NCBI RefSeq assembly: GCF_031583595.1
Contig: NZ_CP134145.1
Coordinates: forward strand, 248,001 to 312,000
Length of the DNA: 64,000 nt
Source: Thalassotalea psychrophila
Lineage (GTDB): Bacteria; Pseudomonadota; Gammaproteobacteria; Enterobacterales; Alteromonadaceae
Direction: 5' to 3'
Shown here: in pieces, positions 12,656 to 23,774 of the stretch
Layout of the letters: the number at the start of each line of letters is the position of its first letter
How positions within the stretch are numbered: position 1 is the first letter of the stretch
The notes under the pieces: generated by a model
Seen by the model: the letters and a program-made list of their open reading frames with translations, nothing else
Told to the model about the DNA's origin: nothing
Database searches by the model: none
Program-made: the position numbers and the translations under genes

Positions 12656-12669
12656 TTGATCTGAATCAA
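12656..12669 (+). promoter_or_regulatory. FNR/DNR-type box upstream of norQ
   Basis: Perfect palindrome TTGAT-CTGA-ATCAA, the consensus for FNR/ANR/DNR regulators. It lies 77 bases before the norQ start. I do not see a strong -10 at the expected distance. The context (NO reductase gene) supports a functional site. Confidence 0.8.
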
Positions 12670-14037: not shown

Positions 14038-14079
14038 TTGATTTCTATCAAGATTCCTACCACAATTGACCTTTAATAT
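14038..14079 (+). promoter_or_regulatory. FNR/DNR box and -10 element for norCB
   Basis: Perfect palindrome TTGAT-TTCT-ATCAA at 14038-14051. TAATAT at 14074-14079 makes a -10 whose start site would put the palindrome near -41.5, the class II activator geometry. norC starts at 14116 after GGGAG. Confidence 0.85.
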
Positions 14080-18291: not shown

Positions 18292-18870
18292 TTAACTAAT
18301 ACCATTTCTATTTAAATGTTCAGTGTATTGTTTATCAGTACCGTTAATATGGTTAATTAACCAACCACTTAAAAATTCACTCACTTCTTGAAACGCATCA
18401 TGCCCAACGTCTTCATATTTTTTCTCTATTTGTTTAATTTTATCTATCATGATTTGATGCTGCTGTTTGTGTTCAACTAAATCAGGATAATTACTATCAG
18501 CCATCATTTGTTCTTCACGAGTAAAGTGATATTCAGTATATGCGATTAAATCTTTCAAACTTTGGTGCTCAAATGCATGGCCCATATCGTAATCATATGC
18601 GGTATTAAATTGGTTCAGTAACGTGATTAGCTTTTGATGGTCAAGATCTAAAGATTTAACTCCCACAGTATATTCGGCTTTCCATTTTATAATTTTGTTT
18701 TGTTTATTTTTGTTATAAATCCAAGGAATAATTATTAATAAGGCAACTAACAACCAAGATATTTTATTATCAAAGCCAATTAAAAAGCCAAGAAAAATGC
18801 TCACTGTGATCAGCCCTATTAAGGCGGCGTATATTAATGCTTTGTATCGATTAGTCATGTTCATACCCAT
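18292..18870 (-). CDS. Membrane-anchored bacteriohemerythrin
   Basis: 192 aa. Two N-terminal membrane helices (about 11-32 and 38-52) precede a complete hemerythrin domain. All seven di-iron ligands are present: H78, H115, E119, H134, H138, H174 and D179. Hemerythrins bind O2, and some bind NO; placed between nor and nir genes, a role in O2 or NO handling at the inner membrane is a reasonable inference. Three in-frame ATGs (18870, 18864, 18858) compete as start; I kept the first. Confidence 0.85.
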   Translation of the reverse strand: MGMNMTNRYKALIYAALIGLITVSIFLGFLIGFDNKISWLLVALLIIIPWIYNKNKQNKIIKWKAEYTVGVKSLDLDHQKLITLLNQFNTAYDYDMGHAFEHQSLKDLIAYTEYHFTREEQMMADSNYPDLVEHKQQHQIMIDKIKQIEKKYEDVGHDAFQEVSEFLSGWLINHINGTDKQYTEHLNRNGIS

Positions 18871-18976
18871 AAAATAAATAAGGTTAAATTAGGTTTGTGG
18901 TTTCACCCATCTTAAAACAAAAAACACAGGTTTATTAACAAAATAGAGCAAATTAACTCAAAACATTAACAAAGTT

Positions 18977-19018
18977 TGATCTAGGTTAAATAATCTCTTT
19001 CTCTATTGGAGGATAGTT
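18977..19018 (+). promoter_or_regulatory. Degenerate FNR/DNR box and -10 for nirS
   Basis: TTGAT-CTAG-GTTAA at 18977-18990 has a perfect left and a 3/5 right half-site. GATAGT at 19013-19018 could be the -10, placing the box near -41.5 and giving a leader of about 185 bases to nirS. The gap 18871-19210 also must hold the promoter of the divergent hemerythrin gene, which could share this site. I see no gene in the gap. Confidence 0.55.
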
Positions 19019-19210
19019 ATTTGCAGAAGGTGGAAACGTATAAAGTAGTTAAGTTAGCTTCTATATTAAGTTGTTTTTGTGTTCCAAATTATTGGGATTA
19101 TGCAATCTTTTTAAAGTGATTCTCGACTATTTAAAAAGTAAATTTAATCAATATTAATTTTATTCTCTGCCTTAACCATTTTTTTTTAAATAACCTCGGG
19201 AGAGAGATCA

Positions 19211-20839
19211 ATGAAAGCAATAAAATATGGAGTTTCAGTACTCAGTGTTGCTGTTGGACTGGCTGTTAGTGGCCTAAGTTTTGCCGTTTCTGCGGAAGAA
19301 CCTACATTATCAGAAGCTGATTTTGAAAAAGCACAATTACAATATTTCCAGCGTTGTGCTGGTTGTCATGGTGTACTACGTAAAGGCGCTACAGGTAAAA
19401 ATTTAGAACCTGAAAACACCTTAAAAAAAGGTCAAAAGCGCTTAGAGAAAATTATTGCGCTAGGTACTGAAGGCGGAATGAATAACTTTGATGATTTGTT
19501 TTCAAAGCAAGAGATTTCAAACTTAGCAACCTTTATTCAAATGACTCCACCAGTACCACCTGAAATGTCTTTAGAGCAAATGCGCTCTCATACTAAAGAG
19601 TATGTTGCTCCAAAAGATTACCCGGCAAAACCAATGCATGGTCGTAACTGGAAAAACTTCTTTGTTGTTATCGAACGTGATGCAGGTAAAGCGGCAATCA
19701 TTGACGGTGATACTAAAGAAATCGTTACTCACATCGATACTGGTTACGCTGTACATGTAATCAAAGGTACTGAGCACCACGCAATAGATCATGCTGAAGA
19801 TGTGGGTCGTTTCTGGTACACCATTGGTCGTGACGGTAAAGTGAACAAAATCGATTTATGGCAAACACCTGATAAAATGTTAGTTGCAGAAACTAAAATG
19901 GCATATGACGCACGTGATATCGCTGTTTCTGGTGACGGAAAATACGTTATTGCTGGTGGTTACTGGCCTGCACATTTCGTAATCATGGATGCTGTAACAT
20001 TAAACCCTCTAAAAGTTGTGTCAACTCGTGGCTATAACACTAAAGGTGAGTTTATCAACGAAGCTCGCGTAGCAGCTATCTACACTATCCCTACTCAATC
20101 TGCATTTATGGTTGCTGTAAAAGAAACCGGGCAAATGTGGCAAGTTGATTATAAAGACCTAGATAACTTAACGGTTACTATGGTGAGCTCTGCTGAATTC
20201 TTACATGATGGTTTCTTTGACCCGTCAGGTCGTTATTTCCAAATCGCAGCGAACGCGTCAAATAAAATGGTTGTAGTTGATACTAAAGAACGTAAGTTAG
20301 AATCAATGATTGAAGTTGATACGCTACCACATCCTGGTCCAGGTGCTAACTGGATTGACAAAGAGTGTGGTCCAGTAGGCGGTACAACTCACTTAGGTAC
20401 TGGACTTGTATCTGTTTGGGGTAACGATCCAATTGGTCATCCTGACCAAGCCTGGAAACTTTGTTATGAAGTAGAAACTGATGGTGCTGGTGCATTTATC
20501 CGTACTCACGAAACATCACAGTATGTTTGGGCCGATCAATTGAAACACCCAGAGCCAGAAATCCAACAATCTGTACAAGTGTTTGATAAAGACACCCATG
20601 AAATTGTGAAAACTATTCGTGTTACCGAGGAGGAAGGCAAAGCCGCACTTCATATGGAATTTAACGCCGATGGTACAGAAGTTTGGGTATCTGTGTGGAA
20701 CCGTACAGATGCGAAGAACCCTACTGGTGAAATCGTAGTTTATGATGCGAAAACTCTTAAAGAGAAGCACCGCATCAAAGGCTTAACTACGCCAACAGGT
20801 AAGTTCAACGTATTCAACCGTATGAACCACAAAACCTAA
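19211..20839 (+). CDS. nirS: Cytochrome cd1 nitrite reductase NirS
   Basis: Periplasmic enzyme reducing nitrite to NO. A signal peptide (cut near SAVSA, about residue 28) leads to a cytochrome c domain with CAGCH (49-53), then an eight-bladed propeller holding heme d1. The predicted d1 ligand is H182 (GYAVH), and the two active-site His are H332 (FLHDG) and H374 (PHPGPG), spaced 42 apart as in the Pseudomonas enzyme. Between H182 and IGRDGK the loop is about nine residues longer than in P. aeruginosa and His-rich. GGGAGAGA precedes the ATG. No nirM follows it. Confidence 0.96.
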   Translation: MKAIKYGVSVLSVAVGLAVSGLSFAVSAEEPTLSEADFEKAQLQYFQRCAGCHGVLRKGATGKNLEPENTLKKGQKRLEKIIALGTEGGMNNFDDLFSKQEISNLATFIQMTPPVPPEMSLEQMRSHTKEYVAPKDYPAKPMHGRNWKNFFVVIERDAGKAAIIDGDTKEIVTHIDTGYAVHVIKGTEHHAIDHAEDVGRFWYTIGRDGKVNKIDLWQTPDKMLVAETKMAYDARDIAVSGDGKYVIAGGYWPAHFVIMDAVTLNPLKVVSTRGYNTKGEFINEARVAAIYTIPTQSAFMVAVKETGQMWQVDYKDLDNLTVTMVSSAEFLHDGFFDPSGRYFQIAANASNKMVVVDTKERKLESMIEVDTLPHPGPGANWIDKECGPVGGTTHLGTGLVSVWGNDPIGHPDQAWKLCYEVETDGAGAFIRTHETSQYVWADQLKHPEPEIQQSVQVFDKDTHEIVKTIRVTEEEGKAALHMEFNADGTEVWVSVWNRTDAKNPTGEIVVYDAKTLKEKHRIKGLTTPTGKFNVFNRMNHKT

Positions 20840-20866
20840 TCAGTAAAAATTTTTAAATACTGATAA

Positions 20867-20963
20867 TGCGAGTATAACAATCGTTATGCTCGCGCATTTC
20901 CCTTAATGCCAATCAGAGTAAATGATTGTTGAACGACTGATTATTTAGTCTGATTGGTATAAT
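20867..20963 (+). promoter_or_regulatory. nirS-nirT intergenic hairpins and extended -10 promoter
   Basis: A hairpin with GCGAG (20868-20872) and CTCGC (20889-20893), continued by ATAAC/GTTAT, follows nirS. A second inverted repeat CCAATCAGA (20909-20917) / TCTGATTGG (20949-20957) is followed at once by TATAAT (20958-20963) with an upstream TG, an extended -10. This suggests partial termination after nirS and a separate promoter for the next gene. Confidence 0.5.
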
Positions 20964-20979
20964 TTAGTACGAGTTAGTT

Positions 20980-22773
20980 ATGGAAAATCAAACATTAAAC
21001 AAACCTAGTTTTTGGTCTCGTCGCTTGATCTTAGGTACCACCATTTCAGGCGCAGTGATATTTTTCGTTGTCGGCATTGTTTTTTGGGGTGGCTTTAATA
21101 CCGCGATGGAAGCTACTAACACAACCGAATTTTGTATCGGTTGTCATGAAATGGAAGATAATGTTTATCAAGAGTATAAACCTTCAATCCATTACTCCAA
21201 CAGAACTGGCGTAAGAGCTGGCTGTCCAGATTGTCACGTACCAAGACCTTGGATTCATAAGGTAGTACGTAAAATACAAGCATCGAAAGAAGTATTTTCT
21301 TGGTTAACTGGTAAATTGGATACTAAAGAAAAATTCAATGAACATCGCTTTGAACTCGCACAAAGTGTATGGAAAGCGATGAAAGATACAGATTCAAGAG
21401 AATGTCGAAATTGTCATAATTTTGAGTCGATGAATCCAGAGTTTCAAAAACCGAGAGCGCGAAAACAACATTTAAATGCCTTTGAAACTGGGCAAACGTG
21501 TATCGATTGTCATAAAGGCATTGCCCATCACAATGTTCGTGATCAATTAACCGATGAACAATTGGAAGAGCTAGAGGCTCCTGTTGCCGCTTATATTCGT
21601 GAAGTACCACAAGAATATAAAGAAGGTTTAGCGCGTATCGAAGCAAAAGAAGCTGCCATTGCGGCAGAAAAAAAAGCCAACACTCAAGCCGAGAAAGAAA
21701 AAGTACAATTGCAAATTGAACAAGCAGTAGCAACGGCTTTAGAAAGTGCCCAAGCAAGTAGCAGTAAACCAGTAGCTGGAAAAAAATCTGCAAAAGCGAC
21801 TCCCGCAGATAGTTTGAATGTTAACTGGAAAAAAGCTAGCTCAACCGACATTAGTGTGTTTTTTCCTGGTACAGCCTCAATCGAATGGGTTTTAGGTCGT
21901 AAGCATGGCGGTAAACGTGCTTTTACTAAAGGTGATCGTTGTATTGAATGTCATGGTGAAGAAATTGCCGATATTGGACAGAATATTGTTTCTGGTGAAA
22001 GTGAAAAAGACTTAGAGCCAAATGTTATTCCAAATAAACGGGGCAGCATTGACGTTAGTATTGCTGCAACTCATGACAGTGAAAATCTGTTCTTGAAATT
22101 TAGTTGGCCTGATAGCGACCATACACCAGCCCCATTTGTTGAAGGCGGAAAAATGGACCCAGAAAATAAAATGAAACTGGCGTTTATGATCTCAACTGAC
22201 GATGTAGAGTTTGCTGATCGCGCTGGTTGTTGGGGAACGTGTCATGCCGATGCCTCTTCAATGCCATTTGCTCCAGAGAAAGATGCTTTAGCTAGTAGTG
22301 AGTTGGGTAAACGCCTAGACCTAAATTCGGGTGTAACCAAGTACCTTAAAGAAACACGCACTAAGTTAGAACTCAAAGGCCGACGTGGTAAAGCATTAGG
22401 CGGCTGGGATAAGCTGAAAAGTGAAGACGAGATCGCTGAGTTTCAACAAGCCCAACAATTTATGGATATAGTACGTTATAAGTCGGGCAGCAAAAAAATT
22501 GAAGACGGGCAAATTCTTGAACAAAGATTAATGCATGGCGGCCAAGGGGCTCAAGCTGTTGCGAATCTTAAAAACGGTACTTGGACAGTAGAAATCAAAC
22601 GTAAGCTTATTTCTACCAAAGAGGGTGATGTTTCTATCGAAGCCGGTAAAGTTTATAACTTTGGCTTTGCTATTCATGACGATTACTCTAGTGCCAGATA
22701 TCACCATGTATCATTTGGTTACAAGCTTGCTCTAGACAATAGTGAAGCGGAAATTAACGCCACTAAACAGTAA
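20980..22773 (+). CDS. NapC/NirT tetraheme cytochrome fused to ethylbenzene-dehydrogenase-like heme domain
   Basis: 597 aa. An N-terminal membrane helix (about 17-38) leads to a NapC/NirT domain with four heme motifs: CIGCH (52-56), CPDCH (82-86), CRNCH (142-146) and CIDCH (174-178). An Ala/Glu/Lys-rich coiled coil (about 210-262) joins it to a C-terminal domain like EB_dh (heme b subunit of ethylbenzene/DMSO-type dehydrogenases) with CIECH (321-325) and a non-standard CWGTCH (417-422, three residues between Cys). NapC/NirT proteins oxidise quinol, so the likely job is to carry electrons from the membrane to NirS or to a heme d1 maturation step. The EB_dh call is from pattern memory. Confidence 0.8.
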   Translation: MENQTLNKPSFWSRRLILGTTISGAVIFFVVGIVFWGGFNTAMEATNTTEFCIGCHEMEDNVYQEYKPSIHYSNRTGVRAGCPDCHVPRPWIHKVVRKIQASKEVFSWLTGKLDTKEKFNEHRFELAQSVWKAMKDTDSRECRNCHNFESMNPEFQKPRARKQHLNAFETGQTCIDCHKGIAHHNVRDQLTDEQLEELEAPVAAYIREVPQEYKEGLARIEAKEAAIAAEKKANTQAEKEKVQLQIEQAVATALESAQASSSKPVAGKKSAKATPADSLNVNWKKASSTDISVFFPGTASIEWVLGRKHGGKRAFTKGDRCIECHGEEIADIGQNIVSGESEKDLEPNVIPNKRGSIDVSIAATHDSENLFLKFSWPDSDHTPAPFVEGGKMDPENKMKLAFMISTDDVEFADRAGCWGTCHADASSMPFAPEKDALASSELGKRLDLNSGVTKYLKETRTKLELKGRRGKALGGWDKLKSEDEIAEFQQAQQFMDIVRYKSGSKKIEDGQILEQRLMHGGQGAQAVANLKNGTWTVEIKRKLISTKEGDVSIEAGKVYNFGFAIHDDYSSARYHHVSFGYKLALDNSEAEINATKQ

Positions 22774-22838
22774 GCGAGCTTAGTCGTCCTGAGTTATTCG
22801 ACTTAAGTCGTCTTGAATTTATTTCAGGATCTTCTAGT

Positions 22839-22890
22839 AAACCTTACAGAGCTAGAGCCTAATCGTTTTAGTTCTGTGAGGTTTATTTAC
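22839..22890 (+). terminator. Hairpin between nirT-like gene and cupredoxin
   Basis: AAACCTTACAGA (22839-22850) pairs with TCTGTGAGGTTT (22873-22884) with a single G-T wobble; a short T-rich stretch follows. It could be a terminator or an attenuator that sets the level of the downstream nir genes. Confidence 0.55.
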
Positions 22891-22923
22891 TTCTACTATT
22901 TTTAATATTAAGGAGAGTTAATT

Positions 22924-23250
22924 ATGTTGAATGCGCTTATTAAGTTATCTTTGGTGATTTTTCTTGCTGTTTTCAGTGCTAATTTGATGGCTAAAGATAT
23001 AGTCGTTGAAATCTATAAAAAGAAATTTATTCCTGCGTCTGTCACCATCGCCCCAGGTGACAAGGTTATTTGGAAGAATATCGAAAAACGGCAGTATCAT
23101 AATGTTTGGTTTAAGCAGTTTTACCAAGAAGAACCCGATTATCTTTTCCCTGGAGACCGTTTTGAACAGGTGTTTACAGATGCGGGCGAATTTCCTTATG
23201 TGTGTGGACCCCACCCTAAAATGACAGGGATCGTAATCGTTAAAAAATAA
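22924..23250 (+). CDS. Periplasmic cupredoxin (plastocyanin/amicyanin-like)
   Basis: 108 aa precursor with a signal peptide cut after LMA (about residue 23). Type-1 copper ligands are H59 (QYHNVW), C94, H97 and M100 (CGPHPKM). The fold and the early His placement match small blue copper proteins of the plastocyanin/amicyanin type. It occupies the place where nirM (cytochrome c551) stands in Pseudomonas and may be the soluble electron donor to NirS; that is inference. AAGGAGAG precedes the ATG. Confidence 0.85.
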   Translation: MLNALIKLSLVIFLAVFSANLMAKDIVVEIYKKKFIPASVTIAPGDKVIWKNIEKRQYHNVWFKQFYQEEPDYLFPGDRFEQVFTDAGEFPYVCGPHPKMTGIVIVKK

Positions 23251-23393
23251 TTATCAGCCTAATTTAAGGCCGTATGTTTCAATGGCGTTAAAAACAGTAA
23301 CTTTCTGTTGAAAATGTGATCTTAAACAATAAATGCAACGGCTTTTATTGATAAATTTTAGTTATCTTTTTATGGAAGCGCTGAGATTTGCCA

Positions 23394-23774
23394 ATGAAAT
23401 ATATCACTATTTTGATCACTTGCATTTGCCTAAGTGTTAGCTTTAATTTAGCTTCAGCATCTCCCAATGTTCTACATAAATCTAACAATTCTACTGACGC
23501 GAGCAATGAATTAAGCTTGCAACGTCAAAAAGATCTTATTCATATGGTCAAACAGGACTGTGGCTCTTGCCATGGTATGACCTTAAAAGGTGGTCTTGGA
23601 CCTTCTTTACTTCCAGATGATTTAACGAATAAACCTGAATACTTTCTTACCATAACTATTATGGAAGGCCGTCCGGGTACTGCTATGCCGCCTTGGAAAG
23701 ATATCCTCACTGAACAAGAAGCAAAATGGATAGCAGAACAACTAATTAAAGGACTAGACAATGACCAACACTAG
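23394..23774 (+). CDS. nirC: NirC-like periplasmic cytochrome c
   Basis: 126 aa precursor with a signal peptide (cut near ASA) and one heme motif CGSCH (56-60); the GTAMPPW Met is the likely sixth ligand. Its position directly before nirF equals that of nirC in Pseudomonas, where it can pass electrons to NirS and may help in the last d1 step with NirN/NirF. The ATG at 23394 is preferred to the TTG two codons upstream. It overlaps nirF by 14 bases. Confidence 0.8.
   Translation: MKYITILITCICLSVSFNLASASPNVLHKSNNSTDASNELSLQRQKDLIHMVKQDCGSCHGMTLKGGLGPSLLPDDLTNKPEYFLTITIMEGRPGTAMPPWKDILTEQEAKWIAEQLIKGLDNDQH

Follow-up and report, generated by a model that had tools for sequence, protein, structure and literature searches.

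A NirT–NirB fusion protein downstream of nirS in Thalassotalea psychrophila and its probable role in electron delivery for nitrite respiration

The closest described system is the nirSTB operon of P. stutzeri. According to the part of PMC8954225 available, nirS, nirT and nirB share one mRNA in this organism; NirB is described as a diheme cytochrome, with the implication that electrons flow from NirT to NirB to NirS. The accessible text of PMC13086519 adds that nitrite reduction in strain ZoBell needs NirT, and that nirTB accompanies one NirS clade in Stutzerimonas. NirS clades are also partly told apart by the presence of nirB, nirT and other genes (excerpts of PMC10999283), and strain RCH2 has, two tags past nirS, a gene whose annotation reads 'Ethylbenzene dehydrogenase' (Psest_0815, Psest_0817; PMC5554334, in excerpt). 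NirT and NirB fused into one protein, NirTB, are likewise already in print, at least in the accessible text of PMC13086519, which cites the fusion in Halomonas sp. 2A; among the literature searched, 'nirTB' was found in that paper only.

Here, we analysed a window of T. psychrophila DNA (the whole stretch of 64,000 nucleotides) that encodes, at 20980..22773 on the plus strand, a single intact open reading frame of 597 residues. Its translation, Pfam matches and homologues identify it as a nirT-nirB fusion gene. A NapC/NirT tetraheme domain (residues 25-186; 21052..21537, +; PF03264 E 3.7e-74) with CXXCH motifs at residues 52, 82, 142 and 174 (motif scan) is followed by a long helical linker (residues 211-260; 21610..21759, +), which is a helix with a pLDDT of 72-89 by block in the AF2 model, and then by a domain of the EB_dh fold (residues 282-578; 21823..22713, +). 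The PF03264 score above cut-off, the four CXXCH motifs and a putative N-terminal membrane helix (11-45 in the AF2 model, where the tetraheme half is of low confidence in parts) place the first domain in the NapC/NirT family; against the NCBIfam napC_nirT model (TIGR02161), the protein falls below the cut-off (266.8 vs 310.6 bits). Its PHROGs match was to an unnamed family only. The EB_dh-fold domain carries a CXXCH, the fifth heme site (C321, C324, H325; 21940..21954, +), and a CX3CH of the CWxxCH type, the probable sixth (C417, C421, H422; 22228..22245, +). All six residues are invariant in the 86 rows of alignment A2, as are Met428 (22261..22263, +), a possible axial ligand, and His566 and His575 (within 22675..22704, +), both probable axial ligands. 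We left out the Cys/His conservation figures from a larger set of 458 modules, which would be circular because both motifs were required when the modules were cut. The initial annotation had proposed this layout of two domains, two additional heme motifs and a helical linker, and the Pfam matches, motifs and AF2 model bear it out.

By type, the EB_dh half belongs with NirB, the diheme cytochrome c-552: it pairs one CXXCH with one CX3CH in an EB_dh domain, and it is fused directly behind NirT, downstream of nirS. The protein thus unites NirT and NirB in one chain and keeps the known gene order nirS-nirT-nirB. A separate-gene parallel is found at locus L124, where nirS, nirT and nirB are three genes within a nir cluster; a protein search with the L124 NirB leads to stand-alone relatives, known from sequences alone, that are named Pseudomonas, Thauera, Bordetella petrii and Aromatoleum and carry the same CXXCH and CX3CH pair. 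By description, the P. stutzeri operon (PMC8954225, partial text) resembles the window in its gene order and in its tetraheme and diheme partners, but there NirT and NirB are separate genes, whereas here they form one chain. The Halomonas sp. 2A protein appears to be the same fusion, a likeness drawn from the citing description alone (PMC13086519, partial text). The gene is thus the union of two already known, neighbouring nitrite-respiration genes, and is mostly ordinary, because such fusions are common and already in print. This identity is what the initial annotation missed; its domains and neighbours stand, as does the electron conduit as the likely role, but it recognised neither the NirB type of the EB_dh half nor the known nirT/nirB pair. 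It had also named many near-identical, well-studied fusions as grounds against its reading, and while similar fusions are indeed many, they are not well studied.

Two other identities were considered and rejected. Like the window protein, TorC cytochromes (pentaheme in the NCBIfam description) and longer CymA homologues with a fifth heme motif (PMC6295460, excerpt) have another heme motif behind their NapC-type domain; both were overlooked in the statement that the tetraheme domain is normally the last part of a NapC/NirT protein. A TorC-like fusion is nevertheless unsupported: the TorC model TIGR02162 scores 248.2 against a cut-off of 478.2 bits, aligns over profile positions 21-215 of 387 only and covers only residues 26-223, whereas the C-terminal domain is EB_dh with two motifs. 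When modelled, this half matches a fold common to the ethylbenzene dehydrogenase gamma subunit (2ivf_C) and nitrite oxidoreductase C (7b04_C). It is not a gamma subunit despite this fold, since the heme b model of the type II DMSO-reductase family (TIGR03477) scores 22.2 against 169.85 bits. The heme b of the gamma subunit is bound non-covalently (PMC10654088, as excerpted), whereas the window protein has two covalent heme motifs.

The CX3CH motif is no peculiarity of this protein: it was present in 360/360 of the best-scoring homologues listed in three protein searches, always as CWxxCH (468 motifs). A CXXCH accompanied it in 359 of these, the remaining one being a fragment. All 120 listed relatives of the stand-alone NirB contain exactly one motif of each kind; farther away, locus L125 reads CYITCH, and one EB_dh-type protein (L150) has neither motif. 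Judging from these sequences, CX3CH is a family trait, stand-alone NirB included. Could the motif nonetheless be empty, making the protein a pentaheme cytochrome? It is non-canonical, and no dedicated heme lyase is evident, as the genome gives only one CcmF match; a dedicated CX3CH lyase is thus unsupported. We consider an empty site very improbable, given the constancy of the motif in the 360 homologues and in the 120 relatives of stand-alone NirB, whose only other motif is a single CXXCH even though NirB is described as diheme (partial text of PMC8954225). Moreover, in MmcA a heme c on CXXXCH has been shown by mass spectrometry (PMC11024163, in part), and ImcH homologues carry atypical CX3CH motifs (PMC6295460, in part). 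From its motifs and from this description of NirB, the module would hold two covalent hemes.

Upstream of the fusion, at 19211..20839 (+), lies a Cytochrom_D1 protein (PF02239, 395.6 bits) that also has a cytochrome c domain; from family knowledge and gene order, we take it to be nirS, the cytochrome cd1 nitrite reductase and probable electron acceptor. A cupredoxin of the plastocyanin/azurin family, a possible but non-universal partner, follows at 22924..23250 (+; PF00127 37.9 bits, cut-off 21.2). Both neighbours agree with the initial annotation. Beyond the cupredoxin are two more Cytochrom_D1 proteins, a small cytochrome c and a tetrapyrrole methylase, and the cluster also includes a NirJ-type radical SAM protein (626.9 vs a cut-off of 515.45). 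The labels NirS, NirC, NirF, NirD, NirE, NirN and Nor are our assumptions from gene order and family knowledge, and nir names in relatives were assigned by best match to the window proteins.

The gaps flanking the fusion gene contain hairpins of 12 and 20 pairs (window 20867-20894 and 22839-22884), and 9 terminator-like sites occur in 18800-23500 against 3.2 expected; a promoter scan gave no excess over shuffles (11 vs 12.3). Exact copies of TTGAT-N4-ATCAA, presumably FNR/DNR sites, precede the NorQ-like and NorC-like genes (window 12656-12669 and 14038-14051). With up to one mismatch, this pattern occurs 14 times in the window against 5.4 expected, and the largest shuffle also reached 14.

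To see how widespread this arrangement is, we searched proteins, finding 2965 relatives at E <= 1e-3 (the best 120 are listed), and scanned DNA from one genome per species, which gave 511 stretches encoding a relative; 80 loci were kept. A NirS homologue lies upstream in 73/80 (70 by an adjacency filter, plus L064, L076 and L082, where NirS is near the contig start). Six of the other seven loci start at a contig end. The true exception, L080, has the fusion, a cupredoxin and NirN-like genes, with nirS absent upstream. Some gene models in this group are broken: the public 416-residue model from Colwellia sp. RSH04 (L013) begins past the tetraheme domain, while the DNA frame has 606 codons and five CXXCH (entries P0116, P0126), and further short models with similar starts are found among P0122-P0146. 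NirT is in a separate frame from NirB in L035, where NirN-like pieces are split too, so a sequencing error is possible, and it is split over two frames in L079.

The cupredoxin, next to the fusion in the window, bears on whether the fusion mainly reduces an intermediate carrier (this cupredoxin or a small cytochrome) rather than NirS itself. In 43/80 loci, a cupredoxin match lies within about 1.4 kb downstream; another 6 have one at a greater distance downstream, on the same strand. The gene also adjoins the fusion on plasmids of Ruegeria sp. THAF33 and Azospirillum brasilense Sp 7, which encode a cytochrome D1 protein, a NapC/NirT cytochrome and a plastocyanin-like protein. However, 36/80 loci lack a match within about 1.4 kb downstream (these include the six with a more distant copy and L066, with a match elsewhere on the other strand; one further locus ends too early), and we therefore rejected the cupredoxin as an obligatory partner. 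No match at all was obtained in 30/80 loci, mostly Colwellia relatives, using one query that divergent copies may escape and stretches of which some end early. The cupredoxin also follows NirS less closely than other cluster genes do (r 0.52, see below). On balance, we regard reduction chiefly of a carrier as rather unlikely, and prefer delivery to NirS, directly or by a small carrier.

Within the best 120 of the 2965 relatives, the NirB module occurs twice in 106 and once in 14. The two modules of a doubled protein (n=106) share a mean of 78% identity, more than the same module compared across doubled proteins (67-68%; 5510 pairs, after dropping those with first modules >95% identical), and two sites separate first from second copies at 91-97%. 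In sequence terms, this suggests either an old duplication whose copies were later kept alike, or repeated duplications.

We also asked how the fusion is distributed relative to NirS across a single draw of 369 Gammaproteobacterial genomes, among them the own genome. The NirB alignment is matched in 41 of these at 1e-5, and the window NirS in 74 at 1e-20. Besides the own copy, the listed NirS matches fall either at 67-78% identity (26 other genomes, 3 by fragments only) or at 52% and below; 27 genomes, own included, therefore have a match of >= 67% among those listed, although further fragments of this group could lie beyond them. The NirB module scores >= 334 bits in 27/369 genomes, the next best being 265, and 26 genomes belong to both sets (grouping and counts made by hand from tables). 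Each set has one exception, G319 with NirS and G147 with NirTB cut by a contig end, which is consistent with broken assembly. Among the 27 high-scoring modules, 23 share an ORF with NirT, and the other 4 are truncated at contig ends.

Distances correlate with those of NirS at 0.79 for NirB and 0.80 for NirT, compared with 0.77 for NirF-like, 0.68 for NirN-like, 0.56 for NirJ and 0.52 for cupredoxin genes. In the 13 loci with all genes, the values are 0.80 for NirB and NirT, 0.81 for NirF-like and 0.83 for NirN-like. The correlation is thus not special to NirTB, as neighbours are expected to be inherited jointly and other cluster genes score about equally, and we rejected it as proof of contact between NirS and NirTB. 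What these data show is joint inheritance of NirTB with one NirS group, as distinct from contact.

NapC-family domains oxidise quinol at the periplasmic face of the inner membrane. Taken together with the fold, motifs and gene order, this makes it probable that the protein is a hexaheme quinol dehydrogenase anchored in the membrane, whose NirB module hands electrons on to NirS either directly or via a small carrier, much as the initial annotation supposed in proposing a quinol-to-periplasm conduit with an extra relay. The N-terminal domain would take electrons from quinol at that face and pass them along its four hemes, across the helical linker and into the CXXCH and CX3CH hemes of the NirB module. 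From there they would reach cytochrome cd1, where nitrite would be reduced to NO; the cupredoxin may help delivery. Fusion would make the hand-over from NirT to NirB intramolecular, and may speed this step. As the genome gives a cytochrome c1 match too, there may be a bc1 route, to which NirTB would add. Two observations count against delivery to NirS: Rhodocyclus species are described as having NirB without a nitrite reductase (PMC8954225, partial text), and the accessible text of PMC13086519 leaves unresolved what share NirTB has in the nitrate inhibition of NirS.

The same paper relays, in its accessible part, a view that NirT may catalytically activate cytochrome cd1. Perhaps, then, the fusion does not supply electrons steadily but helps to activate or assemble NirS, by reducing its d1 or c heme or by acting in heme d1 maturation. 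We find this improbable, as the two further Cytochrom_D1 proteins and the NirJ-type protein are separate genes of the same cluster, and NirB-type modules lie beside NapC-type genes on stretches read where nirS was not found; the maturation role offered by the initial annotation is left unsupported. Steady delivery to NirS remains our preferred reading.

NirB-type modules were followed further at 16 loci: those of 14 lower-scoring NirB-match genomes, a second place in G014 and a second locus of the own genome (L143, C1:4164000-4183000). At L143, two proteins of the OmcA/MtrC family (362.9 and 520.4 bits vs a cut-off of 209.3) are encoded together with one of the MtrB/PioB family (323.3 vs 240.05) and a decaheme protein of the DmsE family (272.1 vs 192.2). 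This locus also has a NapC-type gene and encodes a protein of 531 residues in which eight CXXCH precede an EB_dh-type end; that end contains a further CXXCH and a CX3CH and is barely above the Pfam cut-off (36.1 vs 33.3 bits). Both motifs are present in 15/16 loci, a NirT/NapC-type gene on the stretch read in at least 10/16, and MtrA- and MtrB-like genes in at least 4/16 (L123, L125, L127, L143); the neighbour counts are lower bounds because some stretches are short (3.1 kb in L147). NirB-type genes adjoin MtrA-/MtrB-like genes at L123 4381-9371, L125 8162-13461 and L127 8135-12691; L123 and L125 also have a NapC/NirT-type gene, and the MtrA/MtrB-type pair of L123 is above NCBIfam cut-offs. 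In L120, L121 and L122, NirT-NirB pairs are followed by a protein of roughly 400 residues with one CXXCH and a similar N-terminus, the L120 copy having a weak porin match under cut-off (22 vs 27 bits). In a literature search for such a combination of Mtr- and NirB-type genes, 'ethylbenzene dehydrogenase' appeared in one paper among the matches listed, on archaeal FoxC.

That NirB-type modules lie next to genes of the NapC and MtrA/MtrB types suggests that they serve NapC-type dehydrogenases generally as a relay. We tentatively propose that these diheme modules are plug-in parts, fused once or twice to NirT in one branch of nirS denitrifiers and reused in clusters for extracellular electron transfer, L143 with its eight-CXXCH fusion among them. 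If this is true, a protein with two modules in a row would amount to an octaheme NirT-NirB-NirB wire. Three features deserve more attention: the constancy of CX3CH, the doubling of the NirB module and its presence beside Mtr-type clusters.

For annotation, proteins labelled 'ethylbenzene dehydrogenase-related protein', 'cytochrome C552' and 'NapC/NirT family cytochrome c' can be read as one probable electron-delivery protein of nitrite respiration, with CX3CH flagged as the second, constant heme motif of NirB-type proteins. Since NirTB and a single NirS group pair almost one-to-one (26/27 each way), a direct test also becomes possible: does NirTB feed electrons from quinol to NirS without bc1? 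The answer would bear on nitrite accumulation in denitrifiers.
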